Shown here in pieces: positions 23,431 through 39,690 of a stretch of DNA of 64,000 nucleotides. Position numbers and translations under genes: made by a program. This stretch comes from Streptomyces albogriseolus. Its GTDB lineage: Bacteria > Actinomycetota > Actinomycetes > Streptomycetales > Streptomycetaceae. Below the pieces are notes generated by a model. It did no database searches and was not told the DNA's origin. It was given only the letters and a program-made list of their open reading frames with translations. Position 1 is the stretch's first letter, and every line of letters starts with the position of its first letter. The stretch is from positions 62,001-126,000 of the forward strand of contig BMVA01000015.1 of the NCBI GenBank assembly GCA_014650475.1. The letters are read 5' to 3'.

Positions 23431-24783
23431 CTACCGCTTCCCGCCCCGGCGGACCGCCCGCCCCACCTTCCGTTTCGCCCGCGCCGCGCGGACCCGCGCC
23501 CGGGTGGCCGGGCTGCTGCCCGGCAGGCCCAGCTCGGCCAGGCGCAGGGCGGGGAAGTAGGGGGCCGGGCTGCCGGCGAGGTGGGCGCGCAGCCACTCCT
23601 CGGCCTGCTCCCGCAGCGCCGGATACGTGCGCGGCTGCATGCAGAAGCCCATCGTCCGCACCAGCGGCTCCAGCGACGCGGGCGCCGCGCCCAGCACGGC
23701 CGGGGTCTCGTCCCGCTCCAGGTCCGGCACCAGGTGGTCGACCAGCGCCAGCGGGATCCGGTTGCTGTTCTGGTAGGGCCGCAGCCGGTCCAGCACCAGC
23801 GCCGTCCCCACCCGCGCCACGGGCACCCCGTAGTAGGCGGACGCGGTCACCATCGCCGTGGAGAAGCAGCCGACGACCAGTTCCGGGCGGGCATGCTCGT
23901 ACAGCGTCTCCGCGAGCAGCGGCGCGTCCAGCACGGTGAGCCGCACGCCCGCGTCGGCCGCCGCCTTGTGCAGCGCCGCCGAGTAGCCGGCGGGGGCGGT
24001 CGGATGGGGCTTGAACACGAGTGAGCGGTGCCCGGCGCGCACCGCCCCGGTGAGCATGCGCACATGGAGGTCCTCCTCCTCGTGCGCGCTCAGGATGTTG
24101 ATGGCCGCCAGGTACTGGCCGAGCAGCACGGCCGTCGGCCGCTCCTCGCGCACAGGGGCGAGGAGCGGGTCGTCCGCAGCCTCCCGGGCGACCTCGTCCA
24201 GCACCGCGCGGAACGCCCCGTCCGGCACGACCACCGGCTCCACGCCGTACTCGGAGAGCAGCAGGGGCCGCAGACCGGGCACCAGGTCGAGGTGCAGCAG
24301 CCGCCGGACGCGCCGGCCGAGCGTCAGCGGCAGCTTCTCCCGGGTCGGGCCGTAGCTCATCAGTCCGTCCGCGTACACGTCGACGGACGCCTCGGAGAAG
24401 ATCGCGACCAGCGCGCGGGCCGGGTTGGCCTGGATCGACTCGACGGCCAGATCGACCCGTTCGTCCTCGCCGATGTCCCACAGCAGCCGCAGCGCCCGCT
24501 GCCACAGCACCGTGTCGGAGCCGCGCGGGCCCCAGGCGCTCGGGTGGTACGGGCTGATCGCCTCGTTCCAGCTCACCACCTCGTCGAAGCGGGCGGCCAG
24601 CGGACCGTAGCCGCGCATCTCGTCCAGGCGCAGCGCGGTCTCCGGGACGGCGGCGTTGTGCGAGACCAGCAGGATCCGGCGGGCCGCCCCGTCCGGTCCG
24701 AACAGGCCCGCGTCCAGCGCCGCGGCCAGGGTGGCGGCGCCGTAGAGGGTCGAGACCTGGAAGATCTGGGTCGTGCGGTGCAT
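23431..24783 (-). CDS. Polysialyltransferase-family glycosyltransferase (copy 1)
   Basis: 450-residue protein resembling the alpha-2,8-polysialyltransferase family (Pfam A-2_8-polyST). These enzymes move sialic-type sugars from CMP donors. Motifs that can be read are an acidic-Gly motif in DVYADGLMSYGPTREKL, the HP motif in LVFKPHPT, and the Ser motif in VVGCFSTAM. The tail is strongly basic, suggesting membrane contact. It is the last gene of the leftward operon, 3 bp after a GT2 gene, the same pairing as at 29378-31671. It probably extends a Kdn-type polymer made by the neighbouring CMP-sugar genes. Confidence 0.8.
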   Translation of the reverse strand: MHRTTQIFQVSTLYGAATLAAALDAGLFGPDGAARRILLVSHNAAVPETALRLDEMRGYGPLAARFDEVVSWNEAISPYHPSAWGPRGSDTVLWQRALRLLWDIGEDERVDLAVESIQANPARALVAIFSEASVDVYADGLMSYGPTREKLPLTLGRRVRRLLHLDLVPGLRPLLLSEYGVEPVVVPDGAFRAVLDEVAREAADDPLLAPVREERPTAVLLGQYLAAINILSAHEEEDLHVRMLTGAVRAGHRSLVFKPHPTAPAGYSAALHKAAADAGVRLTVLDAPLLAETLYEHARPELVVGCFSTAMVTASAYYGVPVARVGTALVLDRLRPYQNSNRIPLALVDHLVPDLERDETPAVLGAAPASLEPLVRTMGFCMQPRTYPALREQAEEWLRAHLAGSPAPYFPALRLAELGLPGSSPATRARVRAARAKRKVGRAVRRGGKR

Positions 24784-24786
24784 GGG

Positions 24787-25752
24787 TCAGGCAGCCTTCC
24801 GCCCGTCGCGCAGGCGGCCGAGCAGCCTGCTCCGGGTGCTGTCGATGGTGGCCAGGGTCTCCTCCAGCGCATGCTGCGGCATCCGCAGCAGCGCCTCGCG
24901 CGCCTCCTGCCGCAGCCGCCGGGCCGCCGACGGCTCGTACGCGTCCGCCTTGCCGAGGTGGAAGGCGATCATGGCGCAGTAGGTGCGGACCGCCTTCAGC
25001 AGGAAGCGGTCGCACTCCGGGTCGTTCCGCACGTCCGCCAGCAGCAGGTCGTACGCCGGGATGAAGTCGAGCTGGCGGTCGTCCTTGATCTGGGTGAGGG
25101 AGGTCGCGACGCCCCGCCGGTAGAACACCCCGTGCAGTCCGAGGGAGGCGTAACTGCGCGCCGTCAGGTGCAGCCGCCAGATCCACAACCGGTCCTCGGC
25201 GGTGCGCAGTTCGGTGACGAAGCGCATCCCGCCGTCGTCGAAGAGGCGCCGGCGGTAGACGCCCGCCCAGACGAACGGGTAGTCGACCATGGTCTCCGTG
25301 TCGGCGGGCGCGATCCCGTCGCGCGGGTCCATCACCGCGTTCCGCACCGGCGCCGGGGGTCGCTTGATCACCCGCTCCGTGCCGGTCACCTGCACATGGT
25401 CGGTGCGGGCGAAGTCGCAGCCCAGCTCGTCCATCGCCCGCACCAGCGCGGCCAGATGGCGGGGCCCGTACCAGTCGTCGCCGTCGAGGAACGCCAGGTA
25501 CTCCCCTTCGGCCGCGTCGATGCCGGAGTTCCGCGCCTGGGCGATCCCCTGGTTGGTGTCGTGCCGGATCACCCGCGCGCCCGGCAGCTTCTCCGTCCAC
25601 CGCTCGATCACCCACGGCGTGGCGTCCGTGGAGCAGTCGTCGACGATCAGGAACTCGACATCGGGGTGCGCGTTGGCGGCGAGACTGCGCAAGGTGCTCT
25701 CCGCGAACGCCTCCACGTTGTGCATCGGGACGACGACGGACAGTTTCGGCAC
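24787..25752 (-). CDS. GT2-family glycosyltransferase (copy 1)
   Basis: 321-residue GT-A fold glycosyltransferase. It shows KLSVVVPMHNVEAF, the nucleotide-binding LIVDDCSTDATP, NSGIDAAEGEYLAFLDGDDW with the DxD-type metal motif, and an ED-type acceptor motif around RTAEDRLWIWRLH. No membrane helices are seen. GTG 25752 follows AAAGAGAGAAA. It is paired with a polysialyltransferase-family gene and is a close paralogue of the GT2 at 30682-31671, with the same landmarks throughout. It is likely to add a hexose or linking sugar of the wall polymer. Confidence 0.9.
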   Translation of the reverse strand: MPKLSVVVPMHNVEAFAESTLRSLAANAHPDVEFLIVDDCSTDATPWVIERWTEKLPGARVIRHDTNQGIAQARNSGIDAAEGEYLAFLDGDDWYGPRHLAALVRAMDELGCDFARTDHVQVTGTERVIKRPPAPVRNAVMDPRDGIAPADTETMVDYPFVWAGVYRRRLFDDGGMRFVTELRTAEDRLWIWRLHLTARSYASLGLHGVFYRRGVATSLTQIKDDRQLDFIPAYDLLLADVRNDPECDRFLLKAVRTYCAMIAFHLGKADAYEPSAARRLRQEAREALLRMPQHALEETLATIDSTRSRLLGRLRDGRKAA

Positions 25753-25797
25753 GGGGTTTCTCTCTTTCGGGACGGGAAGCGGCGGCGGTGCGGTGGG

Positions 25798-28011
25798 TCA
25801 GGCCGGGCCGAACACCTCTCTCAGCTCGCCGAGGTTGGCGCGCGTGACCTCCCACAGGGGCCGCTGCGCGGCGTGCACGTCCGCCACGGCGCCCGCGTGG
25901 TCGTCGAGCACCGCCGCCGCCCGCTCCAGGAGCAGCGGCCCGAGGTCCCGGTCGTGCACCGAGAGACCCCACTCCTCACGGCCGATGTCGGACAGGAAGT
26001 ACGCCAGCTTCGGATGCGAGACGAGGCTGAGGATCGGCGTGCCGCAGCCGAACGGGATCATCCCGGCGTGCCCGCGCATCCCGATCACCAGCCGGGACGT
26101 GCGGAACAGCGCGCGGATGTCGTCGTTCGTCCGCTCGTAGAGCTGCTCCACGGGCAGTGTGAGGCCGTGCACCCGGCGCAGGTCGTCCACGAACCGCTCG
26201 TCGGCGGGCATGTGCGCCGCGTACCGCACGTCCGCCCGCTCCCGCAGGCCCCGCAGCGCGAAGGCCGTCTGGCCGAGGAAGTGCCCGTAGTCGTGCCCGA
26301 AGCGCAGCCCCGCGCGGTCGTACGCGCAGTTCACCAGCACCGTGTCGGTCCGCTCGGCCGGGTCGGTCCAGCCGGGGACCAGACGGCGGGCGACCGTGGT
26401 GGGGCAGGGCTGGTACCGCACCCTGTCCCGCAGCCCGGCCGGGAGCAGTTCGCGTACGCGGTCGATGGAGCCGTGGTTGCGCAGGCCGAAGAACGCCGAC
26501 CGCTCGACCAGGACGCGCAGGCTCTCCGCGAACCGGGTGCGGCGGTAGAGCTGCCCGTCGAACACGTTGTAGCCGACCGCGAACACCGCGAGGGGAGCGG
26601 TGAGCCGCTCCAGCAGGGCGTCCGGAACGTTCCACTGCCAGTGGCTGTGGCCGTTGGGGGAGGTGTCCGGCAGGAACAGCCCGCCGCCGCCCACGACCAC
26701 CCCGCGCCGCGCGTTCAGCTCCTCCAGCGCCGCCTCGTCGACCAGCCGGTGCACGGGCTGCGCGTACCAGCGGCGCGGCCCGGTGTCCGGCCCGAAGCAC
26801 AGCCGCACGGCCTCCGGGAGCACCTTGTCCCCGGCGTTCTCCCGCCCTTCCGCGAACAGCGCGACGTGCGCGAGCTGTTCACGCGCGGCCGCCGGCTCCC
26901 CGCCGCCGTCGGTCTCCGCCCGCTCCGGCCGGGTGCGGACCTGCCAGGCGTGGCAGCCGGCGTCGGTGGGGTCGGCGTCCAGGCCCTCCAGGGCGTACCG
27001 GCGTGCGTCCTCGTCGCGCCCCAGGATCCAGGCGAGCCGCGCCAGCTGGGCGTAGGCGCGGGGCGCCACGTCGGGGGAGGCCGCCGCGAGCAGCAGCCGC
27101 GCCTCCGCCTCCGCGTAGCGCGACAGCGCCATCAGACACACGCCGAGCGTCTCCTGGCAGCGCGGCGCGTCCAGCCGGTCGCCCACCACCGGGGCGAGCA
27201 CCTCGACGGCCTCGTCGTACCGGCCCTGTCTGCGGTACACCTCCGCGACCGTCCGGGCCAGGTCCAGGGAGGGACGGGCCGTCAGCAGCGGCGGCGCGAG
27301 GTGCGCGAGCAGCTCGGGGTGCTTCTCGCCGGGCAGCGCGCAGTACGCGGCCCGGAACGCGTCGTCGCCCGGCGCGAACCGGCGCCACACCTCGGCGGCG
27401 GGGCCCGACGCCGGCACGCCGGACGCCCGGGGGAAGCGCAGCACCGCCACGTGCGGCGGCACCGGCAGGTCGTCGCCCAGCCGGGCGGCGGGGAAGTCGT
27501 ACCGCCCGTCGACCGGGTTCAGGACCTTCTCCAGCACCGTCTCCGGGTCCTCGCCCGCCGCGAGCCGCGCGAGGAGCGAGTCGTCCAGGTCGGCGCGCTG
27601 CACCACCAGCAGGCCGTCGAGCAGCCCGCCCCGCACGTCGTCCGCCCCGGCGCGCGGCACGGCGCCGACCCCGTGGCGCAGCCGCAGCAGCGGGCCGATG
27701 TCGCCCAGCACCACCGTGTCCGGGGTGAGCACGACGACCGTGTCGTACCCGGCCGGACGCAGCAGGTCCGCGAGACCGCCGTCGCGGCGCGCGACCACGC
27801 GGGGGTGCAGCCGGCGCAGCGGGCCGAACGCCGGGTCGGGCAGGCCCGGGTGCAGCACCACCACGTCCTCGCAGACGTTGGGGGCGGCGAGGGCCAGGCT
27901 GCGCAGCAGGGCGGCCGTGCCGGGCAGTCCGGCGGCGTCGGTGCGGACGGCGAAGGCGATCCGGCGCCGGCCGGTGACGGCGCTCCGGTCGTCCGCCTGG
28001 GCGTGGTTCAT
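25798..28011 (-). CDS. Polysaccharide pyruvyltransferase-like protein with N-terminal GT-like and TPR regions
   Basis: 737 residues, long for the family because it is a fusion. Residues 1-200 look like a Rossmann/GT8-like glycosyltransferase region (AFAVRTDAAGLPGTAALLRSL, then VVVLTPDTVVLGDIGPLL). About 230-350 is TPR-like (EVYRRQGRYDEAVEVL, then ALSRYAEAEARLLLAA). About 370-720 matches the polysaccharide pyruvyl transferase family (ENAGDKVLPEAVR, GGGGLFLPDTS, then SRLVIGMRGHAGMIPFG). ATG 28011 overlaps the preceding gene (ATGA). It may pyruvylate or modify the Kdn polymer. Whether the N-terminal region is active is unclear. Confidence 0.8.
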   Translation of the reverse strand: MNHAQADDRSAVTGRRRIAFAVRTDAAGLPGTAALLRSLALAAPNVCEDVVVLHPGLPDPAFGPLRRLHPRVVARRDGGLADLLRPAGYDTVVVLTPDTVVLGDIGPLLRLRHGVGAVPRAGADDVRGGLLDGLLVVQRADLDDSLLARLAAGEDPETVLEKVLNPVDGRYDFPAARLGDDLPVPPHVAVLRFPRASGVPASGPAAEVWRRFAPGDDAFRAAYCALPGEKHPELLAHLAPPLLTARPSLDLARTVAEVYRRQGRYDEAVEVLAPVVGDRLDAPRCQETLGVCLMALSRYAEAEARLLLAAASPDVAPRAYAQLARLAWILGRDEDARRYALEGLDADPTDAGCHAWQVRTRPERAETDGGGEPAAAREQLAHVALFAEGRENAGDKVLPEAVRLCFGPDTGPRRWYAQPVHRLVDEAALEELNARRGVVVGGGGLFLPDTSPNGHSHWQWNVPDALLERLTAPLAVFAVGYNVFDGQLYRRTRFAESLRVLVERSAFFGLRNHGSIDRVRELLPAGLRDRVRYQPCPTTVARRLVPGWTDPAERTDTVLVNCAYDRAGLRFGHDYGHFLGQTAFALRGLRERADVRYAAHMPADERFVDDLRRVHGLTLPVEQLYERTNDDIRALFRTSRLVIGMRGHAGMIPFGCGTPILSLVSHPKLAYFLSDIGREEWGLSVHDRDLGPLLLERAAAVLDDHAGAVADVHAAQRPLWEVTRANLGELREVFGPA

Positions 28012-29258
28012 CGCAGGGCGGTCCTCATCGTGCGGTCGTCGACGTGCGTGGCGCGGTTCCGGACCCATGCGGCCTCCCGTGGCCGCAGCGTGCCGCCGCC
28101 GTCGAAGCCGATCAGGTCCAGGCGGGGCGTGACGTCCAGGAAGTCCAGCAGGCGCAGGACGGTGAAGGCGGTGCTGGTCCCCGCGTCCCAGTCGTCCTCG
28201 CCGAGCAGCGCCGGGTCGCCCAGCGGGCGGCGCAGCGTGGCGTCCCCGACGTGTTCCTGCGCCCCGGCCGCCAGCCGCTGCCGCAGGGCGCGCCGCCAGG
28301 CGGCCGCCGGGTCGCCGAACACCAGCCGGATCCCGGCCGGGCGGGTCCAGGCGGGCCCCTCCCACGGGGTGTCGCCGCGCAGCGTCACCGCGTGCAGACC
28401 GGTGCGCTCCCCGGTGCCCTCGGCGCGGATCCGGAACGCGTCGCAGCGCACCACGACGTCGTACCCGTCGATCAGCCCGCCCAGCGTGCCGCCGGCCACC
28501 GCGGGGGCGCCCGACACCAGGCACACCGTCCGGCCCGCGAGCAGCCGCCGCAGCCCCGTGACGCCGACCGGTTCGGCCCCGCCGAGCAGCGGGTCGGACA
28601 GCGCGGACCGCTCCAGCAGCCGCCGGTGGACGGCGTGCAGCGCCAGCAGCCGCCGTACGGCGGGATCGTCAGGACCCCGCTCGGACAGCCGCGCCCGCAC
28701 GAAGGCGGCGAACTCCGCCGCCGTGACCGCCGTCGGCCGGCCGGCCTGGACGAGCGGCGTCCCGGCCGCCCCGGGGAACAGCGCGGCGGCCTCCTCCAGG
28801 CAGGCCCGGCGGCGGCGCAGCGTGTCCACCCGGCGGGCGACCTCGCCGGCCGCCTCCGCGCCGAGCTCCAGGCAGCGCTCGTAGCACTCCAGCGCCTCCG
28901 CCTCGCGCCCCAGCCGGTCCAGCGCGAGACCGCGCAGCCGCCAGGCGCCCTTGGACCGCCGGCGGATCTCCACCGCCGTGTCCGCGACGCCCAGCGCCAG
29001 CTCGGGCGCGCCCGGACCGCCCGCCTCCAGGGCCCGCTCGCCGACCCGCAGCAAGGCGTCGAACGGGTCCGCCGACGGCCGCGTGAGCGCCCCGGCGTAC
29101 CCGCCGATCGCCCGGACCAGCCGCGTGCCGCCCGGACCGGGCGCCTCGCCCCGCTCGGTGAGATGGTCACCGACCAGGCGCAGCCCCCGGGCGAGGAGAG
29201 CCTGCCCGGCGGCCTCCTGCCGCCGCGCCCTGAACAGTCCCCCCAGGGAGTTCGTCAT
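28008..29258 (-). CDS. GT29-like (sialyltransferase-motif) protein with TPR-like N-terminus
   Basis: 416 residues. The N-terminal half is helical and TPR-like (RLRGLALDRLGREAEALECY). The C-terminal half (about 255-416) has AGRTVCLVSGAPAVAGG, then GLIDGYDVVVRCDAFRI, and ends LDLIGFDGGGTL, then HVDDRTMR. This follows the large sialyl-motif pattern of family GT29 (hydrophobic strand, S-G turn, IDxxDxVxR), and such domains do occur in bacteria. In a gene cluster making a CMP-sialic-type donor this reading is attractive, but it rests on pattern only. ATG 29258; it overlaps the next gene by four bases. Confidence 0.5.
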   Translation of the reverse strand: MTNSLGGLFRARRQEAAGQALLARGLRLVGDHLTERGEAPGPGGTRLVRAIGGYAGALTRPSADPFDALLRVGERALEAGGPGAPELALGVADTAVEIRRRSKGAWRLRGLALDRLGREAEALECYERCLELGAEAAGEVARRVDTLRRRRACLEEAAALFPGAAGTPLVQAGRPTAVTAAEFAAFVRARLSERGPDDPAVRRLLALHAVHRRLLERSALSDPLLGGAEPVGVTGLRRLLAGRTVCLVSGAPAVAGGTLGGLIDGYDVVVRCDAFRIRAEGTGERTGLHAVTLRGDTPWEGPAWTRPAGIRLVFGDPAAAWRRALRQRLAAGAQEHVGDATLRRPLGDPALLGEDDWDAGTSTAFTVLRLLDFLDVTPRLDLIGFDGGGTLRPREAAWVRNRATHVDDRTMRTALR

Positions 29259-29377
29259 CCGTGCCACCGTCCTCGTTCCGGACGCCGAATGTGCCCCGGC
29301 ACGGCGGGCCGCCGGTGGCGTCCGGATGGACACACGGTGAACAGTCCCGGGACAGCAACCGGCAGCCGCGGGCGCGC

Positions 29378-30685
29378 TCACCGCCCGACGGCCTTCCGTA
29401 CCGCCCGCGCCCGCCGCACCACCCGCCGGACGGCCTGGCTCCGCGGCAGGAACGCCAGCCGCCCCGGCACACCCCCGGGCAGCCCCAGCGCGGTGAGCCG
29501 CCGCCGGGTGAACCACTGCCGCTCCCACGTCCCCGCCGCGAGATACCGCTCGGTGTCGGCCCGCAGCGAGGGCCGCACCCGCGGCCGCATGGTGAACGCG
29601 AGGGCGGCCAGCAGACCGTCCAGGTCGTCGGCCACGGGGGCGTCGCCCTCCGTCCCCGGCAGCACCGCCTCCGCCAGCACCAGGGCGGTTCGCTGCGGGT
29701 GGTGATACGGCGTCAGCCGGTCCAGCAGGCGCTCCGTGCCGACGCGGGCGACCGGGACGCCGTACAGGGCGGACGCCGTGAACAGGGCGGCCGACGAGCA
29801 GCCGACGACCAGCGCGGGGCGGGACGCCTCGTACAGCGCCTCCACCGGGACGGGCGTGTCCGGCACCGTGAGGTCCACGCCGAGGCGGGCCGCTTCCGCC
29901 CGCGGCCCGGCGGCGTGCCGGGACGGGGAGGCGGGGTGCGGTGCGAACACCACGCGGTCGTGACCGCGTCCGGCCGCCGTCCGCACCATCTCCGCGTGCA
30001 GCGCGTCCTCCTCGCCCGCGGAGGTCACGCCGAGGGCGGACAGGCGCCCGCCGACGACCAGCGCGGCCCCCTCGGTCATCCCCGTCACCGCCGAGGCGAC
30101 CTCACCCGTCACCGCCCGGAAGGCGTCCGCCGGGATCACCCGCGCCGGCGCCCCGAACTCGCCGAGCAGCAACGGCGTCAGACCAGGTATCAGGTCCAGG
30201 TGCAGCACCTGCCGCACCCGCGTGCCCAGCAGCGGGTCCAGCTTGCCGCGGGTGGGCCCGTGATCCGCCGGTCCGCCCGCGCACACATGCAGGGGCGCGC
30301 CGTGGAACACGCGGGCCACCGCCTGCGCGGGCGGGGCGTCCGGGGCGCCGAGGACCAGCTCCACCCGGTCGTCCCCGAGCCCCCACAGCCGCCGGAGGTG
30401 CCGTTCGAGGAGCGGCACGTCCTCCGTGCGGGGCGTCCAGGCCGCCGGGTGGAAGGGCCGTATCGCCTCGTTCCAGGACAGCACCGCGTCGAAGCGGGCC
30501 CGCAGCCGTGCGAAGCCCGGCACCTCGTCCCACGGCGGGGCGGCCTCCGGGACCGGCCTGTCGTCGCACACCAGCAGCACCCGCCGTCCCGCCTCCGGCA
30601 GCAGCCCCGCCTCGATCGCGGCGGCCATCAGCACCACCGCCGACGGACTGCTCGCGCAGAAGATCCGCGTACCGGCCGCCCTCAC
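29378..30685 (-). CDS. Polysialyltransferase-family protein (copy 2) with altered acidic motif
   Basis: 435 residues, aligned end to end with the copy at 23431-24783 (WNEAI, GPTRxKL, LHLDLxPGL, HP motif VFAPHPA, Ser motif VVGCSSAAL). The segment that reads VYADGLMSYGPT in copy 1 reads VCAGGPADHGPT here. The acidic-Gly motif that supplies the catalytic base in bacterial sialyltransferases has therefore lost its Asp (ADG to AGG). It may be inactive, use another base, or serve as partner of copy 1. GTG 30685 overlaps the GT2 stop (GTGA), so it is translationally coupled to it. Confidence 0.78.
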   Translation of the reverse strand: MRAAGTRIFCASSPSAVVLMAAAIEAGLLPEAGRRVLLVCDDRPVPEAAPPWDEVPGFARLRARFDAVLSWNEAIRPFHPAAWTPRTEDVPLLERHLRRLWGLGDDRVELVLGAPDAPPAQAVARVFHGAPLHVCAGGPADHGPTRGKLDPLLGTRVRQVLHLDLIPGLTPLLLGEFGAPARVIPADAFRAVTGEVASAVTGMTEGAALVVGGRLSALGVTSAGEEDALHAEMVRTAAGRGHDRVVFAPHPASPSRHAAGPRAEAARLGVDLTVPDTPVPVEALYEASRPALVVGCSSAALFTASALYGVPVARVGTERLLDRLTPYHHPQRTALVLAEAVLPGTEGDAPVADDLDGLLAALAFTMRPRVRPSLRADTERYLAAGTWERQWFTRRRLTALGLPGGVPGRLAFLPRSQAVRRVVRRARAVRKAVGR

Positions 30686-31671
30686 GCGGCTCCCCTCCCC
30701 GCACGCAGCGGTGCCCGCCGCAGCCGTCGCAGCCGCGCCGCCCGTCCCGCGTCCATCGAGTCCAGCACCTCGTCCAGCACGTCCCGCGGCAGCCGCCGCA
30801 GCGCGTCCCCGCACACCGCCCGCAGCCGCGCGGCCACCGCCGGCTCGAACTTGTCCCGCTCGGCGAGATGACGGTCGATCACCGCGCAGTACGTCCGCAC
30901 CGCCTTCGGCAGCAGCCGGTCCGCGTCCCGGTCCTCCGCCGTCTGAGCCACCACCCGGTCGAAGGCGGGCACGAAGTCCAGCTGCCGCTCGTCCCCGACG
31001 CGGGTGAGGGAGGAGGCGACGCCCTTCCGGTAGAACACGCCCAGCAGGCCCACCACGGCGAACGACTCCGCCTCCCGGTGCAGCCGCCAGATCCACGGCC
31101 GGTCCTCCGCCGTGCGCAGCCCGTCCGGGAAGTGCAGCAACCCCCGCTCCAGCAGCCGCCGGTGGTACACCCCGGCCCACGCCTGCGGGTAGTCCACCGC
31201 GGTCGTCCGGTCGGCGGGCAGGATCACCTCCCGCGGGTCCAGCACCTCGTCCCGCAGCCCCACCGGCACCCGGCGCACGGTCCGGGCCCGCCCGGTGACC
31301 CGTACGTGGTCCGTGCGCAGGAAGTCGCAGCCCAGCTCCTCCGCCGCGGCGACCAGCCGGGGCAGATACCCGGGCGCGTACCAGTCGTCGCCGTCCAGGA
31401 AGGTCAGGTACGCGCCCTCCGCCGCGTCCAGTCCGGCGTTGCGCGCGGTGGCGATCCCGCCGGCGTGCTCCCTGCGGAGGAAACACACCCCCGCGACGCG
31501 GGACAGCTCCTCGGCGGCCCGCTCGACGAGCACCGGGGTGTCGTCCTGAGAACCGTCGTCGACCAGAACGAACTGGAAATCCGGGCGGGCATTCGCGCGC
31601 AGACTCCTGAGCGCGTCCGGCGCGTATTGCCGGACATTACGGAAGGGCACGATCACGGAAAGCTTCGGCAC
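30682..31671 (-). CDS. GT2-family glycosyltransferase (copy 2)
   Basis: 329 residues with the same landmarks as the GT2 at 24787: VPKLSVIVPFRNV, LVDDGSQDDTP, LTFLDGDDWYAPGY and RTAEDRPWIWRLH. It is the first gene of the leftward wall-polymer operon. GTG 31671 is preceded by TAATGT at 7 bases and no ribosome binding site, implying a leaderless mRNA. The C-terminal 60 residues are Arg-rich. The GT2/polyST pairing occurs twice in the operon, indicating duplication of a two-gene module. Confidence 0.9.
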   Translation of the reverse strand: MPKLSVIVPFRNVRQYAPDALRSLRANARPDFQFVLVDDGSQDDTPVLVERAAEELSRVAGVCFLRREHAGGIATARNAGLDAAEGAYLTFLDGDDWYAPGYLPRLVAAAEELGCDFLRTDHVRVTGRARTVRRVPVGLRDEVLDPREVILPADRTTAVDYPQAWAGVYHRRLLERGLLHFPDGLRTAEDRPWIWRLHREAESFAVVGLLGVFYRKGVASSLTRVGDERQLDFVPAFDRVVAQTAEDRDADRLLPKAVRTYCAVIDRHLAERDKFEPAVAARLRAVCGDALRRLPRDVLDEVLDSMDAGRAARLRRLRRAPLRAGRGAA

Positions 31672-31869
31672 CCGGAAAACATTAGGAGAGGGCCCGGCGC
31701 GCGTTCTTTCCGCCGGACGTACGGGCGGTGAACTCCGTGTGTCGGTCCGGTGGATCGCGTCTACCTCGGGCGTTTTCCCGGGCGGGTTCGGTTCTCGGTG
31801 GGGTGTTGTTAACTTTTCGTTGAGGCGCGGTTGGGCCGTTCGCGGAATTCGATTCCTAGCGTCTTCGGC
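31672..31869. promoter_or_regulatory. Bidirectional promoter region of the wall-polymer cluster
   Basis: These 198 bp separate the leftward and rightward operons. Going left, TAATGT (minus strand, 31679-31684 region) stands 7 bases before GTG 31671. Going right, TAGCGT (31857-31862) stands 7 bases before GTG 31870. Both messages therefore look leaderless. An AT-rich patch (GTTGTTAACTTTTCGTTG) lies at 31805-31822. No clear palindromic operator is visible. Confidence 0.5.
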
Positions 31870-33177
31870 GTGCCAGCAAGTGCAACGAAGCCCCTCAGGG
31901 TGGCGGTCCTCGCGGATTCCGACACCCGCTGGAAATGGGGCACGCTCACCGCGAAACGCATCGCGCCGCGCGACATCCGCCTGGACGGATATCTGCTGCG
32001 GGGCCGCGCCACCCCCACCGCCCGCCAGCTCGGCGAGGTCGGGGTCCGCGCGGACTCCCTGCGGGAGGTCACCGCGGCCGAGTTCCTGCGCGCCATGGAC
32101 GAGGAGCCCTGCGACGTCCTCGTGCTCGCGCTGGTCGGCGGCGCGGTGCAGGCGATGCTGCACGGGCTGCGACGCGTCTGGGAGGACCGGCCCCGCCGGC
32201 CCGTCGTCGTCACCGGCTACGTCGGCGTCGTCTACGAGAAGCTCACCGACGGCCTGCTGCTGCGCCACGGCGCCGACCTGGTGCTGGCCAACTCCCGCCA
32301 GGACGCGGAGCGTTTCCGCGCCGTGTACGAGGGCGTCGGCGCCGACGCGGGCGCGGTCACCGAGGTCGCGCTGCCGTTCCTCGGGGGCGCGCCCCACACC
32401 GGCGGCCACGAGCCGTACACGGTGGTGTTCGCCGCCCAGCCGTCCGTGCCGGACACCCGCGCGGACCGCACGTACCTGCTGAACCGGCTGGCCGGGCACG
32501 CCCGCCGCCACCCGGAGCGCGAGGTGCTGCTGAAGCTGCGCTCCCGGCCCGGCGAACACACCACGCACATCGAGGAACTGCCCTACCAGAAGCTCGCCCG
32601 CGGCCTCGGCCTCCCCGCCAACCTGCGCCTGGTCTACGGGCACATGGGCGAGGTCCTCGACCGCACCGACCTCCTCGTCACCGTCAGCTCGACGGCCGCC
32701 CTGGAGGCCCTGCACCGGCGCATCCCCACCGCGATCCTCACCGATCTCGGCGTCCGCGAGGCGCTCGGCAACCACCACTTCGTCGGCTCCGGCTGCCTCG
32801 CCTCCTGGGACCAGCTCGACGCCGGACACCGCCCGGCGCCCGACGAGGAGTGGCTGGCCCGGCAGGGCGTGGCCGCGGACGGCACGTACGCGACGGCCTT
32901 CGACGCGGCCCGCGCCCGCATCGCCGAGCTGCTCGACCGGCCCGGCGGACTCCCGCCGCTCACCCCCTACTACACCCCCGTCACCGCGCCCGGCTATCTG
33001 CCCGGCGTCCTCGCCCGCCACCACCTCGGCCCCGACGGGACGCCGCTGCCCGGCGCGCCCGCCGCGGACCGGGAGCCCGGCCCGGTCCGGCGGGTCGTGC
33101 GCCGCACCGCACGCGGCGCCTACCGCCACGGCGTGCAGCGCGTGGCCCCCGTGATCCGCCGCATGGGCGAGCTGTGA
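31870..33177 (+). CDS. DUF6716-type putative glycosyltransferase
   Basis: 435-residue protein with GT-B-like layout. The first Rossmann half begins LRVAVLADSDTRWKWG and contains VVVTGYVGVVYEKLTDG. The second has a Lys/Arg motif (LLKLRSRPGEHTTH) and a Ser motif (LLVTVSSTAALEALHRRIP) in the place where sialyltransferase-like enzymes bind the CMP donor. The C-terminus is basic. GTG 31870 appears leaderless (TAGCGT at -8). It is the first gene of the rightward operon whose next members make the CMP-activated sugar, so it probably uses that donor. The family assignment is from memory of its actinobacterial members. Confidence 0.75.
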   Translation: MPASATKPLRVAVLADSDTRWKWGTLTAKRIAPRDIRLDGYLLRGRATPTARQLGEVGVRADSLREVTAAEFLRAMDEEPCDVLVLALVGGAVQAMLHGLRRVWEDRPRRPVVVTGYVGVVYEKLTDGLLLRHGADLVLANSRQDAERFRAVYEGVGADAGAVTEVALPFLGGAPHTGGHEPYTVVFAAQPSVPDTRADRTYLLNRLAGHARRHPEREVLLKLRSRPGEHTTHIEELPYQKLARGLGLPANLRLVYGHMGEVLDRTDLLVTVSSTAALEALHRRIPTAILTDLGVREALGNHHFVGSGCLASWDQLDAGHRPAPDEEWLARQGVAADGTYATAFDAARARIAELLDRPGGLPPLTPYYTPVTAPGYLPGVLARHHLGPDGTPLPGAPAADREPGPVRRVVRRTARGAYRHGVQRVAPVIRRMGEL

Positions 33178-33209
33178 CCGCCCGAACCCCCCATCGAGGA
33201 GCTGACCCC

Positions 33210-34439
33210 ATGTCCGACTCTCCGGCCGCCGTCCGCCGGGTGCTCGCCGTGATCCCCGCGCGCGGCGGCTCCAAGGGCGTCCCCGCGAAGAACCTCGCCC
33301 CGGTCGGCGGCGTGCCCCTCGTGGCCCGCGCCGTGCGGGAGTGCCGCGCCGCCCGGCACGTCACGGACGTGGTCGTCTCCACCGATGACGCGGCCATCGC
33401 CGAGACCGCGCGGCAGGCGGGCGCGGAGGTCGTGCCGCGGCCGGCCGGCCTCGCGGGGGACACCGCCACCTCCGAGGCGGCCGTGCTGCACGCCCTGGAC
33501 GCCCACGAGGCGCTGCACGGCGCGCCGGTGGACGTCGTCCTGCTCGTGCAGTGCACCAGCCCCTTCCTCACCCGGGAGGACGTCGACGGGGTGGCCGCCG
33601 CGGTCGCCCACGGCGGCGCCGACACGGCGGTGACGGTCGCCCCGTTCCACGGCTTCGTCTGGCGTGAGACCGGCGCCGGGACGGCCGGAGGAGGCCACGG
33701 GGGAGGGCACGGCGTCAACCACGACAGGTCCGTGCGCCCCCGCCGCCAGGACCGCCCCCAGGACTTCCTGGAGACCGGCGCCGCCTACGCCATGGACGCC
33801 GCAGGCCTGCGCGAGCACGGCCACCGCTTCTTCGGCCGCACCGACCTCGTGCGCACCGACCCGGCGCGCGTCCTGGAGGTCGACGACCCGCACGACCTCG
33901 CCCGGGCCCGCGCCCTCGCGCCGCTCCTCGACACCGGCCGCACCGGCCTGCCCACCGCCGACGACATCGACGCGGTGGTCCTCGACTTCGACGGCACCCA
34001 GACCGACGACCGGGTGCTGATCGACGCGGACGGACGGGAGTTCGTCTCCGTGCACCGCGGCGACGGCCTCGGCGTCGCCGCCCTGCGCCGCAGCGGCCTG
34101 AAGCTGCTGATCCTGTCCACCGAACAGAACCCGGTCGTCGCCGCCCGCGCACGCAAGCTGAAGCTCCCCGTGCTGCACGGCGTCGACCGCAAGGACCTCG
34201 CCCTCAAGCAGTGGTGCGAGGAGCAGGGCATCGCGCCCGAACGCGTGCTCTACGTCGGCAACGACGTCAACGACCTCCCGTGCTTCGCCCTCGTCGGCTG
34301 GCCCGTGGCGGTCGCGAGCGCCCACGACGCCGTACGCGGCGCCGCCCGCGCGGTCACCACCCTCCCCGGCGGTGACGGCGCGATCCGAGAGATCGCCGGC
34401 TGGATCCTCGGTCCCTCTCTCGATTCCCTCCCCCAGTAA
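33210..34439 (+). CDS. CMP-sialic/Kdn synthetase fused to HAD phosphatase
   Basis: 409-residue fusion. Residues 1-225 are a NeuA/KdsB-type cytidylyltransferase with signature VIPARGGSKGVPAKN, LLVQCTSPF and RRQDRPQDFLETGAAY; it activates a nonulosonic acid with CTP. Residues from about 250 are a KdsC-like HAD phosphatase: VVLDFDGTQTDD, LILSTEQ, a Lys-containing GVDRKDLALKQW, and YVGNDVNDLPCF. In known Kdn pathways a 9-phosphate is removed before CMP activation, so one chain would carry both late steps. ATG 33210 follows GAGGAG. A short Gly/His insertion (residues 156-169) precedes the donor loop. Confidence 0.9.
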   Translation: MSDSPAAVRRVLAVIPARGGSKGVPAKNLAPVGGVPLVARAVRECRAARHVTDVVVSTDDAAIAETARQAGAEVVPRPAGLAGDTATSEAAVLHALDAHEALHGAPVDVVLLVQCTSPFLTREDVDGVAAAVAHGGADTAVTVAPFHGFVWRETGAGTAGGGHGGGHGVNHDRSVRPRRQDRPQDFLETGAAYAMDAAGLREHGHRFFGRTDLVRTDPARVLEVDDPHDLARARALAPLLDTGRTGLPTADDIDAVVLDFDGTQTDDRVLIDADGREFVSVHRGDGLGVAALRRSGLKLLILSTEQNPVVAARARKLKLPVLHGVDRKDLALKQWCEEQGIAPERVLYVGNDVNDLPCFALVGWPVAVASAHDAVRGAARAVTTLPGGDGAIREIAGWILGPSLDSLPQ

Positions 34440-34453
34440 GGAAACCCCTGGTC

Positions 34454-35389
34454 ATGAGCGACTCCCGCATCCGCACCCTCGGCGCCCGCGAGGCCGGCCC
34501 CGGCCGCCCCGTCTACGTCACCGGTGAGATCGGCATCAACCACAACGGCGACCTCGACAACGCCTTCCGGCTGATCGACGCCGCCGCCGACGCCGGCTGC
34601 GACGCCGTCAAGTTCCAGAAGCGCACCCCGGAGATCTGCACCCCCCGCGACCAGTGGGACATCGAGCGGGACACCCCGTGGGGCCGGATGACGTACATCG
34701 ACTACCGGCACCGCGTGGAGTTCGGCGAGGACGAGTACCGCCGGATCGACGCCTACTGCAAGGAGAGGGGCATCGACTGGTTCGCCTCCCCGTGGGACAC
34801 CGAGGCCGTCGCCTTCCTGGAGAAGTTCGACGTGCCCGCCCACAAGGTGGCCTCCGCCTCCCTCACCGACGACGAGCTGCTGCGCGAACTGCGCGCCACC
34901 GGCCGCACCGTCATCCTGTCGACCGGCATGTCCACCCCGAAGCAGATCCGCCACGCGGTCGAGGTGCTCGGCAGCGACAACATCCTGCTGTGCCACGCCA
35001 CCTCCACGTACCCGGCGAAGGCGGAGGAGCTGAACCTGCGGGTCATCAACACCCTCCAGCAGGAGTACCCGAACGTCCCGATCGGCTACTCCGGCCACGA
35101 GACCGGCCTGCAGACCACCCTCGCCGCCGTCGCCCTCGGCGCCGTCTTCGTCGAGCGCCACATCACCCTCGACCGCGCCATGTGGGGCTCCGACCAGGCC
35201 GCCTCCGTCGAGCCGCAGGGCCTGGCCCGCCTGGTCCGCGACATCCGCACCATCGAGGCCTCCCTCGGCGACGGCGTGAAGAAGGTCTACGAGTCCGAGC
35301 TCGGCCCGATGAAGAAGCTGCGCCGGGTGCCCGGCGTCGTCGCCGAGGCGGAGATCGCCACGGCCGCCGGCGAGCCCGTGTCGGTCTGA
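34454..35389 (+). CDS. NeuB-family nonulosonate (Kdn-type) synthase without SAF domain
   Basis: 311-residue NeuB-fold aldolase condensing phosphoenolpyruvate with a hexose or hexosamine (phosphate) to make a nine-carbon acid. Features are VTGEIGINHNGD, DAVKFQKR, FASPWD, KVASASLTDDELL, ILSTGMST, metal-site IGYSGHETGL and RHITLDRAMWGSD. Sialic acid synthases normally have about 346 residues and end in an antifreeze-like (SAF) domain that covers the active site; here the chain stops soon after the barrel. ATG 34454 is 14 bp after the CMP-synthetase. With the fused phosphatase next door, a 9-phosphate product from mannose-6-phosphate (Kdn-9-P) is the likeliest reading. Confidence 0.88.
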   Translation: MSDSRIRTLGAREAGPGRPVYVTGEIGINHNGDLDNAFRLIDAAADAGCDAVKFQKRTPEICTPRDQWDIERDTPWGRMTYIDYRHRVEFGEDEYRRIDAYCKERGIDWFASPWDTEAVAFLEKFDVPAHKVASASLTDDELLRELRATGRTVILSTGMSTPKQIRHAVEVLGSDNILLCHATSTYPAKAEELNLRVINTLQQEYPNVPIGYSGHETGLQTTLAAVALGAVFVERHITLDRAMWGSDQAASVEPQGLARLVRDIRTIEASLGDGVKKVYESELGPMKKLRRVPGVVAEAEIATAAGEPVSV

Positions 35390-35431
35390 CCCGCCCTCAC
35401 CCACCCCTACGACGGGAACGGTCGTACGTCG

Positions 35432-36520
35432 ATGAGCCCCCGCGCCGGCCGCACCGGCCCCCGCACGCTCGCCTTCGTGGAGAGTCCGGTCCAGCTGCTC
35501 AACGTGCTGGAGTGGGCGCACGCCCACGCGCCCGGCGCGGGACTCGCCCTCGTGGTGCTGTCCCCGGTCGACCCGATGACCCGCGGCCAGCTCCGCCGCA
35601 TGGCCGAACTGGCCCGCGAGGAGGGGCACGACGTCCGCTGGGAGGAGGCGCGCGGGGGAGCGGGCGCCCCGCTGCGCACCATAGGCGGCCTCGCCGTGCC
35701 GCTGCGCCGGGCCCGGCGGGTCGTCCTCGGCGACCCGTTCTCCCGGTACGTGCAGCTGCTGCTGACCATCACCCGGGCGCCCGAGGTGGTGGTCGTCGAC
35801 GACGGCACGGCGACCATGGAGTTCGCCGGCCAGCTCGCCCGCGGTGAACGCCTGGTGCGCTGGCACCGCAAGGGCGGCCGCCCCGGCCCCCGCGACCTGG
35901 CCCTCGCCCCGGTGTCCGCCGCCGCCCGGCGCCGGCTCACCCCCGGCGAGGGCCGCACGGTGGAGGTCTTTACCTCCATGCCGATGGCGGACGTCCCGCC
36001 CGGCGTCACCGTGCGCGCCCACACCTTCGCTTGGACCCGCGACCGCTTCGGACCGCCGCGCGTCACCCGGGGCGCCGACCTGGTGGGCACCTCCCTGGTG
36101 GAGACGGGCGTGGTGGACGCCGACTCCTACGTGCGGGCGGTCGGCGCGCTCGCCCGGACCCACGGCGCCCGGCGCTACTTCGCGCACCGCCGGGAGACCA
36201 CCGAGAAGCTGCACCGGCTGGCCGTCGAGACCGGCCTGGAGATCGTCCGCCCCGAACTGCCCCTGGAACTGGTCGCCCGCCGCGGCCCCGTGGGACGTAC
36301 GGTCGTCAGCTTCCCCTCCACCGTCGTCCACACCCTGCCGCTCGCGCTGGCCGGTACCGGGGTGCGGATCGCGGTGTGCGACATCGACCCGGCGTGGCTC
36401 ACCGCCCACGCCTCCCCGCGCGCCCGGGGCTTCCTCGCCGACGTGGTCGGCACCGCGCGCGACGCGCACCGTCTGCGCCCCGCCGCGCCCCCGGGTCCTG
36501 GCCCGCTGTCCGCCAGATGA
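35432..36520 (+). CDS. GT52-like sialyltransferase-family protein
   Basis: 362 residues. The opening TLAFVESPVQLLNVLEWAHA is typical of GT52/CST-type bacterial sialyltransferases and related polysialyl enzymes. VVVDDGTATMEFAG supplies an acidic-Gly motif, YFAHRRE stands at the HP-motif position and VVSFPSTVVHTLP at the Ser motif. No membrane helix is seen. It is the last gene of the rightward operon, 42 bp after the NeuB homologue, and is expected to transfer the CMP-activated nonulosonic acid onto the polymer. Linkage and acceptor cannot be read from sequence. Confidence 0.72.
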   Translation: MSPRAGRTGPRTLAFVESPVQLLNVLEWAHAHAPGAGLALVVLSPVDPMTRGQLRRMAELAREEGHDVRWEEARGGAGAPLRTIGGLAVPLRRARRVVLGDPFSRYVQLLLTITRAPEVVVVDDGTATMEFAGQLARGERLVRWHRKGGRPGPRDLALAPVSAAARRRLTPGEGRTVEVFTSMPMADVPPGVTVRAHTFAWTRDRFGPPRVTRGADLVGTSLVETGVVDADSYVRAVGALARTHGARRYFAHRRETTEKLHRLAVETGLEIVRPELPLELVARRGPVGRTVVSFPSTVVHTLPLALAGTGVRIAVCDIDPAWLTAHASPRARGFLADVVGTARDAHRLRPAAPPGPGPLSAR

Positions 36521-38092: not shown

Positions 38093-38269
38093 CGTGTCGT
38101 ACCTCCCCGGGCCCGCTCCGCTTGCGGCCGGGTCCCCTGGGGTGCAGCGTGGGGCCGTGCAGACGTGCATGCCCGTTTCGCTCCCCTGCGACCCCCTGGT
38201 TCACAAGGGCGTAACCGGCCATCGGCACGAATGGATAACGGCCCCGCTCGACCCCGTTCCCAGGAGTGT

Positions 38270-38281
38270 CTACGCGCGTTA
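38270..38281. promoter_or_regulatory. Nucleoside-regulon operator, copy 1
   Basis: CTACGCGCGTTA, one changed half-site of the palindrome CTACGCGCGTAG, lies 54 bp before the BMP lipoprotein start. The same TCTACGCGCGTTAAT context recurs at copy 2 (39613-39627). Confidence 0.7.
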
Positions 38282-38335
38282 ATGTGCGCCGAACCGAGCA
38301 CCCGCTGCGGGGCTTTGGAGAATGGGGAACTTCAG

Positions 38336-39385
38336 ATGCGTCGGATATCCAAACTGACCCGCGTAGCGGTGGGGGTCGCTTCGCTGGCGCTCGCCGCCAC
38401 CGCCTGCGGCGGAACCAGCAGTGACAACGGTGACAGCGGGGGTTCCAAGGACGACCTCGGCGTCGCCATCGCCTACGACATCGGCGGCAAGGGCGACCAG
38501 TCCTTCAACGACGCCGCGTTCGCCGGCCTCACCAAGGCCAAGGAGGAGTTCGGCTTCAAGACCGCCGACGTCGAGCCCACCGAGGGCGAGACCGACGCGG
38601 ACAAGGAGCAGCGCCTGGCGTCGCTGGCCCGCCAGGGCTACAACCCGGTCATCGGCGTGGGCTTCGCCTACGGCCCCGCGATGGAGGCCGTCGCCGCCAA
38701 GTACCCCGACACCACGTTCGGCATCGTCGACTCCGTCGTCGAGGGCGAGAACGTCGCCTCCCTGGTCTTCGCCGAGGAGCAGGCCTCTTACCTCGCCGGT
38801 GTGGCCGCCGCCAAGGCCACCAAGAGCAACACGGTCGGCTTCGTCGGCGGTGTGGACATCCCGCTCATCCACAAGTTCCAGGCCGGCTACGAGCAGGGCG
38901 TCAAGGACACCAACTCCAAGGTCAAGGTCATCCCGCAGTACCTGACGCAGACCGCGGAGGAGGGCGGCTTCTCCAGCCCCGACAAGGGCAAGGCCGCCGC
39001 CGAAGGCCAGATCGAGAAGGGCGCGGACGTCATCTACCAGGCGGCCGGCCTCTCCGGCCAGGGCGTCATCGAGGCCGCGGCCAAGGCGAAGGTCTGGGCG
39101 ATCGGCGTCGACTCCGACCAGTACAACCAGGAAGCCCTCGCCGCCTACAAGGACTTCATCCTCACGTCCGCCCTGAAGGACGTCGGCGGCGCGGTCTACA
39201 CGCTGACCAAGTCGGTCCAGGACGGCAAGCCGCTCACCGGCACCCAGGTCTTCGACCTCAAGGTCAACGGCGTCGGCCTCTCCGACAGCAACCCCAAGAT
39301 GGCCGAGATCCCCGGCCTGAAGGAAGCCGTGGACAAGGCCAAGAAGGGCATCACCGACGGCACCATCAAGGTCAACACGGAGTGA
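38336..39385 (+). CDS. BMP-family nucleoside-binding lipoprotein (copy 1)
   Basis: 349-residue substrate-binding lipoprotein of a BmpA/PnrA-type ABC importer. The signal peptide ends in a lipobox (LAATAC) with Cys at residue 22. The binding fold has the family motifs VAIAYDIGGKGDQSFND, NPVIGVGFAY, FGIVDSV, AEEQASYLAGVAAA, GFVGGVDIPLIHKF, and WAIGVDSDQYNQ. Relatives bind purine nucleosides. ATG 38336 follows GGGGAA. Preceded by operator copy 1 and followed by its own terminator, so its mRNA is separate from the ABC operon. It is a tandem duplicate of the next gene, with the same length and no obvious indels. Confidence 0.93.
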   Translation: MRRISKLTRVAVGVASLALAATACGGTSSDNGDSGGSKDDLGVAIAYDIGGKGDQSFNDAAFAGLTKAKEEFGFKTADVEPTEGETDADKEQRLASLARQGYNPVIGVGFAYGPAMEAVAAKYPDTTFGIVDSVVEGENVASLVFAEEQASYLAGVAAAKATKSNTVGFVGGVDIPLIHKFQAGYEQGVKDTNSKVKVIPQYLTQTAEEGGFSSPDKGKAAAEGQIEKGADVIYQAAGLSGQGVIEAAAKAKVWAIGVDSDQYNQEALAAYKDFILTSALKDVGGAVYTLTKSVQDGKPLTGTQVFDLKVNGVGLSDSNPKMAEIPGLKEAVDKAKKGITDGTIKVNTE

Positions 39386-39425
39386 CCTCGCTGCCGGACC
39401 CCGTCCGGCACGGAGACCTCCCGTA

Positions 39426-39462
39426 CGAAGCGGGCGGGCGCAACCGGCGCCCGCCCGCTTCG
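39426..39462 (+). terminator. Terminator of first BMP gene
   Basis: Perfect 16-bp stem CGAAGCGGGCGGGCGC with a 5-base loop, 40 bp after the stop. Confidence 0.85.
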
Positions 39463-39613
39463 TCGTGCCCTGAGCCGGAGGCGTCCGCGGAGGGCTCCGG
39501 CGCTCACCCACCGCCACCCTCTGTTTGCGAACAGCAACGGCCCGTCCCGCAGGGCGGAACCGGCTTGAACACGGGCGCATAACAAGGTGGACAGAAGGGG
39601 TTTTCAGGCAGGT

Positions 39614-39625
39614 CTACGCGCGTTA
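39614..39625. promoter_or_regulatory. Nucleoside-regulon operator, copy 2
   Basis: CTACGCGCGTTA, identical to copy 1 over TCTACGCGCGTTAAT, 65 bp before the second BMP gene. Confidence 0.7.
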
Positions 39626-39690
39626 ATCTGCGGCGAAGCCAGCGCCGTAGCTGTACCGTCCCGGCGCTTGTACGACTAGGAGCACCACAC

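Follow-up and report, generated by a model that had tools for sequence, protein, structure and literature searches.

The locus considered here raises the question of how many of its glycosyltransferases are still active. It lies at positions 23431–36520 of a 64,000-nucleotide stretch of Streptomyces albogriseolus DNA (contig BMVA01000015.1, positions 62,001–126,000; the whole stretch is called the window), and it comprises ten open reading frames (ORFs), lettered A to J from left to right, of which six run leftward (A–F) and four rightward (G–J) from a single gap. An earlier note on this DNA had proposed an assembly locus for a polymer of 3-deoxy-D-glycero-D-galacto-nonulosonic acid (Kdn) with at least five candidate nonulosonate transferases. 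The locus matches the published teichulosonic acid (Kdn) cluster of Streptomyces, and the cluster as such is not new. What is new is its anatomy: a core and a cassette, two versions of the genes C and D, and the loss of catalytic motifs. A count of five active enzymes is not supported, because D and E have lost conserved motif residues and J is without family evidence; two or three candidate nonulosonate transferases (A, the DUF6716 protein G and perhaps J) are left, and the active enzymes behind the polymer are probably fewer than the genes would suggest. We consider it likely that A and B have taken over transfer steps from older genes, that C is active in part, and that D and E serve as non-catalytic partners. 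The features are as follows.

23431..24783, minus strand: A, a second, intact polysialyltransferase-family (polyST) protein (PF07388), candidate nonulosonate transferase (Pfam; motifs intact)
24787..25752, minus strand: B, a glycosyltransferase of family 2 (GT2; PF00535), paralogue of F with 55.5% identity (Pfam)
25798..28011, minus strand: C, a degenerate GT8-derived domain, tetratricopeptide repeats (TPR) and a polysaccharide pyruvyltransferase domain (PF04230) (Pfam, motif reading)
28008..29258, minus strand: D, TPR and a GT29-derived domain without the sialylmotif Asn residues and the VS-motif His (motifs, relatives)
29378..30685, minus strand: E, polyST in core position (PF07388), conserved Asp lost (YADG to CAGG), probable pseudo-transferase (Pfam, motifs)
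30682..31671, minus strand: F, core GT2 glycosyltransferase (PF00535), conserved (Pfam)
31672..31869, no strand: divergent promoter region, 198 bp
31723..31755, minus strand: PHO-box-like array of three 11-nt units, towards the leftward operon (shuffle test)
31786..31840, plus strand: weaker PHO-box-like array of five 11-nt units, towards the rightward operon (shuffle test)
31870..33177, plus strand: G, DUF6716 protein with a GT-B-type fold, core candidate Kdn transferase (Pfam, model)
33210..34439, plus strand: H, CMP-nonulosonate synthetase (CTP_transf_3) fused to a KdsC-type HAD phosphatase (Pfam)
34454..35389, plus strand: I, NeuB-type nonulosonate synthase of 311 residues, probably a Kdn-9-phosphate synthase (Pfam)
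35432..36520, plus strand: J, conserved core protein, family unassigned

The ORF coordinates bear out the divergence of ten genes from one 198-bp region, with GTG start codons at 31671 and 31870 on either side; C and D, and likewise E and F, overlap by 4 bp. Pfam searches confirmed much of the gene content read earlier: NeuB (I, 276 bits), the synthetase–phosphatase fusion (H, CTP_transf_3 plus HAD), two polyST proteins (56.2 bits for E, cut-off 23.3), DUF6716 (G, 375 bits), two GT2 enzymes and, in C, TPR plus the pyruvyltransferase domain (PS_pyruv_trans, 40.1 bits, cut-off 25.3). Two things had been overlooked: the degenerate GT8 domain at the start of C, and the motif losses in D and E.

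The distribution of the genes over genomes separates a core from a cassette. NeuB (E-value up to 1e-20) was found in 175 of the 197 genomes of the order sample, all of them Streptomyces, and D (E-value up to 0.001) in 38. In 60 Streptomyces loci, hand-chosen from the listed NeuB places, G-H-I-J was always present, and a polyST–GT2 pair faced it in 58 (the exceptions are L136 and L138; L and G numbers denote loci and genomes, respectively). The core thus consists of the polyST–GT2 pair facing DUF6716, the CMP-synthetase/phosphatase, NeuB and J, and A–D (23431–29258) form an optional cassette. A methylmalonyl-CoA mutase gene and M20/BMP genes flank many of these loci. A further, named set of 77 loci, 61 of them from Streptomyces, probably shares some genomes with the order sample, so that the two sets are not independent; it leaves aside L222–L237, whose matches are weak and fall mostly in the TPR region. 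Four genomes carry the A-B-C-D cassette apart from the NeuB locus (L139, L140, L141, L142). D goes together with NeuB: in the class sample of 394, each of the 10 genomes that hold a D homologue has this NeuB, compared with 77 of the 394 overall (hypergeometric p 5e-8, kinship ignored), a co-occurrence that links bacterial GT29-like proteins to nonulosonate biosynthesis.

C and D occur in two versions. Among the 38 genomes with D, 20 carry version 1, in which C is a GT8–TPR–pyruvyltransferase and D a TPR–GT29 protein, and 17 carry version 2, that of the window, which is without the GT8 and GT29 motifs; the remaining genome (G192) matches in the TPR region only (E-value 7.5e-4, residues 73–160) and is counted in neither. 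The motifs of both proteins were read from alignments, and the residues concerned have established roles: the Asp and HP in polyST, the sialylmotif Asn and His in GT29, and the DxD in GT8. In version 1 the GT29 motifs are kept in 18 of 20 D proteins, the exceptions being L146, where C and D are both degenerate, and L113 (G045), where D is broken and C absent. In version 2 all 17 D proteins lack RFN and the VS His, and all 16 readable C proteins lack the GT8 DxD and the other GT8 motifs (C of L143 runs into a contig end). The named set agrees, with DxD absent in 56/56 C and RFN in 60/60 D; the classifier flags a His at the VS position in 1/60 D (L221), where the aligned letters are PHE, not a VS motif. 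In the window, the VS His segment of D is deleted and both sialylmotif Asn positions are changed, and the N-terminus of C shows neither a PF01501 match nor a DxD motif.

The ancestry of both proteins is seen in version 1. The C protein of L083 matches GT8 (PF01501, E-value 2.7e-18) as well as PF04230, and its D matches the GT29 family PF00777 with 27.4 bits (cut-off 23), as do the D proteins of L085 and L108 above the cut-off. Version-1 D proteins carry L-, S- and VS-like sialylmotifs as in the animal GT29 enzyme ST6Gal1, from which D differs by its fusion to TPR repeats and, in the window, by the loss of the key Asn and His. The GT29 fold was modelled on the relative L083 D only: the best match of the model was human ST6Gal1 (E-value 1.3e-4, probability 1.00; template modelling score 0.29 by query and 0.47 by target), at a mean predicted local distance difference test (pLDDT) score of 74.5 with weak stretches that include the VS-motif region. 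Window D did not match PF00777 at E-values up to 0.5. The earlier description of D as GT29-like therefore stands as resemblance by descent, and fails for the window protein itself, which we rejected as an active GT29 on its motifs. C–D pairs outside Streptomyces were found in three genomes, with motifs intact in L249 and L251 and partly changed in L250; none has NeuB within the 20 kb fetched, and all three genomes have NeuB elsewhere. Since the motifs are intact in other genera, the intact state is likely ancestral. In the phylum sample PF00777 occurred in 1 of 296 genomes, as a version-1 D, and a literature search for GT29 in actinobacteria found nothing relevant among the papers listed. As a separate observation, genome G595 (L252:9035-12651) contains an 817-residue ORF with a GT29 domain (PF00777, E-value 1.7e-11) and a GT1 domain, directly upstream of a CMP-nonulosonate synthetase/phosphatase gene; this genome also has the NeuB.

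Version 2 is accompanied by the extra pair A-B. Identity is 45% between A and E and 56% between B and F. In the order sample A-B adjoins 17/17 version-2 cassettes, of which four (G041, G065, G158, G163) show no NeuB in the stretch fetched around them. All 20 version-1 genomes have one polyST. Of 15 version-2 genomes in the count, 14 have two; the exception is G041, where the A-type copy stands alone and the core pair is missing. The count leaves out G047 and G065, and the second match in G189, a 92-residue fragment, is uncounted. The split in polyST number between the versions gave a Fisher p of 3e-10 (kinship ignored), and on the core-gene tree 13 and 9 changes of state were counted for the cassettes. 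In the named set B is present in 53 of the 60 loci with D, and of the other seven, three lie on short stretches (L169, L179, L214). The link of version 2 to A-B is thus strong but not absolute. Two further arrangements were seen: L105 and L119 carry a second polyST–GT2 pair on the plus strand without C-D, both polyST copies being motif-intact, and S. gossypii (L207, L208) has two C-D copies, neither with A-B within 10 kb.

In the genomes counted, decay of the core polyST E is confined to those with a second copy. The motifs YADGLMSYGPTR, HP and CFST are nearly constant across polyST proteins. A keeps them as YADGLMSYGPTR/KPHP/CFSTAM and deviates at 3 of 164 near-invariant columns (threshold 85% for polyST), compared with 36 of 164 for window E, which reads CAGGPADHGPTR/APHP/CSSAAL. 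Window F deviates at 4 of 130 near-invariant GT2 columns (threshold 93%), and its DGDD motif stands unchanged in 68 of the 71 F proteins (two are unread; the remaining one, L081, is taken up below). Of the 20 genomes with a second polyST, 13 have a decayed core polyST, as against 0 of the 50 without one (Fisher p 1.6e-9), in a table of 70 genomes that excludes L136 and L138, which have no core polyST, and in which the second-copy state of L107, L134, L135, L153 and L158 was partly set by hand. L158 (G010) had been a candidate exception, with a decayed core polyST and no second copy; it was rejected when a count over the whole genome turned up a second copy, not linked to the first. The motifs of A are kept in every copy read. 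In the 40 named Streptomyces loci with two readable polyST (21 of the 61 fall outside), A is intact in all 40, and a strict motif rule classes 23 of the E proteins as changed, among them L183 with a single differing letter and L168 and L171 with a few.

Whether the degenerate parts are retained or on their way out was judged from the ratio of nonsynonymous to synonymous substitution rates (dN/dS) in pairs of close relatives. Values were 0.32–0.48 for decayed E, 0.29–0.52 for version-2 D and 0.13–0.34 for A; intact core polyST gave 0.32–0.39 in three version-1 pairs. The GT29 part gave 0.23–0.43 when motif-less (eight version-2 pairs) and 0.18–0.35 when intact, the GT8 part of C 0.26–0.61 in version 2 and 0.16–0.35 in version 1, and the pyruvyltransferase part of C 0.14–0.25 and 0.11–0.27, respectively. 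The window, compared with L161, L162 and L164, gave 0.40–0.46 for E, 0.14–0.20 for A, 0.38–0.46 for the GT29 part of D, 0.42–0.73 for the GT8 part and 0.09–0.24 for the pyruvyltransferase part of C, values that are rough as they rest on few substitutions. Selection on the GT8 remnant appears relaxed; the GT29 remnant and E seem to be retained, under weaker constraint than A. With ratios below 1, E and D are better described as retained pseudo-transferases than as pseudogenes.

These ratios bear on two other explanations. The degenerate parts could belong to genes heading for loss that stay in frame only through translational coupling to active neighbours, by way of the 4-bp C-D and E-F overlaps. 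The raised ratio of the version-2 GT8 part is in line with this, as are G041, which lacks E-F in its 20-kb NeuB locus (L136), and the broken D of G045; purifying selection on E and on the GT29-derived part is not, nor is a D ORF of more than 200 residues in 60 of the 61 named Streptomyces loci, and we hold gene loss to be unlikely, if still the stronger of the two. Alternatively, D and E could still be active with a changed specificity or mechanism, the fixed VVRCD of D marking a new active site. VVRCD is present in all 60 D read in the named set, and purifying selection on the GT29-derived part would be expected here too; the deletion and substitutions in the sialylmotifs of window D, the loss of the GT8 motifs alongside, and the failure to recognise any new catalytic motif make altered activity a somewhat less probable explanation again. 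Retention of D and the older E as non-catalytic partners of an assembly complex is the reading that we prefer.

The nature of the sugar follows from the gene content and from published work. The NeuB-type synthase, phosphatase and CMP-synthetase are present together at the locus, and the NeuB gene is the only one in the genome. A search for UDP-N-acetylglucosamine 2-epimerase (PF02350) gave 0 matches in the source genome, and the control search was positive in 11 of 14 genomes; there is therefore no evident source of N-acetylmannosamine of that kind, which fits Kdn rather than N-acetylneuraminic acid (Neu5Ac). Kdn is made from mannose-6-phosphate. The phosphatase domain of H matches the solved structure 3mmz (E-value 1.2e-98), and almost all of the 75 proteins aligned retain its HAD motifs. 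The same domain matches the Kdn-9-phosphate phosphatase model NF058599 with 74.2 bits, below the 180-bit cut-off, and PDB entry 3e81; it resembles in this the Kdn-9-phosphate pathway of Bacteroides thetaiotaomicron, from which it differs by its fusion to the CMP-synthetase. The absent epimerase and the fused phosphatase domain of KdsC/Kdn-9-phosphate-phosphatase type fit Kdn better than Neu5Ac. I is apparently short of a C-terminal part that is present in 349-residue solved homologues.

The polymer locus proposed earlier is already in print for S. coelicolor, the original paper being reportedly that of Ostash in 2014. S. tendae (L182) and S. coelicoflavus (L184), relatives of S. coelicolor, have the ten window genes in identical order, with E motifs that are kept where those of window E are degenerate. 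The ten-gene region SCO4873–SCO4882 of S. coelicolor is described as a PhoP-controlled teichulosonic acid cluster (PMC13011467, PMC2824715, PMC2267785), as is SLI_5146–5156 of S. lividans (PMC8003754), both with neuAB-type genes, and the S. coelicolor polymer is described as containing galactose and Kdn, often with N-acetylglucosamine or methyl (PMC7831098, PMC11481543). The NeuB product could in principle serve something else, such as a glycolipid or a secondary metabolite, and an export or ligation gene was not recognised among the ten genes; given the published role of the S. coelicolor counterpart (PMC13011467, PMC8003754) and the location of the sole NeuB, we regard this as very improbable. 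The utr clusters for teichuronic acids (TUA-WTA) of Streptomyces are likewise variable wall-polymer clusters and, as described, differ in their sugars (ManNAc3NAcA, GalNAc) and in their gene set (PMC13274773).

We propose that the locus would make and assemble a teichulosonic acid containing Kdn, a wall polymer without phosphate that PhoP would switch on when phosphate becomes scarce. I would condense mannose-6-phosphate and phosphoenolpyruvate to Kdn-9-phosphate, which H would convert to Kdn and on to CMP-Kdn, with phosphatase and synthetase in one chain. G, the polyST–GT2 pair and J may build the chain, the core enzymes starting it. In the exchangeable cassette A–D, the ancestral C-D probably served to transfer a hexose as well as a nonulosonate and to pyruvylate what was made; in version 2 the extra, intact A-B pair would have taken over the transfer steps of GT8–GT29, D and the older E persisting in the assembly complex. 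The pyruvyltransferase part of C, whose motifs are kept in the window and in 56/56 C of the named set, would stay active. The pyruvylation suggested earlier is plausible by analogy with the 7,9-pyruvylated Kdn polymer reported for Promicromonospora (PMC6801904).

Several observations weigh against this reading. When kinship is taken into account, phylogenetically independent pairs average 5.2 for and 0 against the association of E decay with a second polyST, with a median p of 0.0625, so that support after this correction is no more than suggestive. Decay is not obligatory, since 7 of the 20 genomes with a second polyST have an intact E; 8 of the 13 decayed copies keep the acidic residue and have changed at other motif residues, L095 mildly. 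Genes other than E, D and C are affected too, as the GT2 protein F of L081 has changed from DGDD to DAGD. L187, L207, L208 and L211 are complete version-2-like loci of the named set without A-B within 10 kb; genome counts gave two polyST for L187 and L207 and one for L211, so takeover by A-B is not universal. L146 has likewise lost its GT8 and GT29 motifs and has no A-B pair. For the S. coelicolor polymer, the secondary accounts cited name galactose, Kdn, N-acetylglucosamine and methyl, and no pyruvate (PMC7831098, PMC11481543). Finally, the likeness to the S. coelicolor cluster is read from publications and from L182 and L184. The L081 genome is also unusual in its arrangement (L081:9715-12000), with A-B, without C-D, and with both core polyST and core GT2 changed.

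If D and E are non-catalytic, gene lists of this locus overcount the active Kdn transferases and would mislead linkage assignment, and the alternation of GT8–GT29 with polyST–GT2 predicts which genes do equivalent jobs. More tentatively, and with rather less than even confidence, D and E may represent a conserved class of pseudo-glycosyltransferases, namely GT29-derived and polyST-derived non-catalytic subunits of a Kdn complex that arose after polyST–GT2 replaced GT8–GT29. By the same logic an intact bacterial GT29 would be a nonulosonate transferase, and bacterial GT29 would gain a genetic context.

For the remaining core proteins and the promoter the evidence is as follows. The model of G (pLDDT 82) has a GT-B-type fold, with 3beo, a UDP-GlcNAc 2-epimerase, as the best match (E-value 4.6e-11) and glycosyltransferases also among the best 50 structure matches. 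By sequence, the DUF6716 profile found no convincing relative in the PDB and no link to polyST, the polyST profile found nothing convincing in the PDB, and the literature search found no paper on DUF6716. DUF6716 adjoins NeuB in all five non-Streptomyces genomes of the phylum sample that show it (G226, G403, G414, G445, G456), and in G226 and G403 (L155, L156) two DUF6716 paralogues flank the NeuB/CMP-synthetase genes. J had been called GT52-like; no Pfam family passes for it, window J does not match PF07922, and hhalign gave no link to polyST or DUF6716. PF07922 was hit in 1 of 20 relatives, at E-value 0.3, and GT52 was rejected for lack of support.

The promoter gap measures exactly 198 bp at 35 of the 59 loci, the window among them, with starts chosen by similarity to those of the window. 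With the consensus GTTCACC, the leftward PHO-box-like array was equalled in 2 of 1000 shuffles and the rightward one in 29 of 1000; parts of both arrays are conserved over the 59 loci. Beyond J, positions 38165–40740 hold two tandem ORFs that by eye resemble BMP-family lipoproteins, followed by an ABC-transporter-like ORF, and the first of the BMP-like ORFs also flanks the loci of many relatives.

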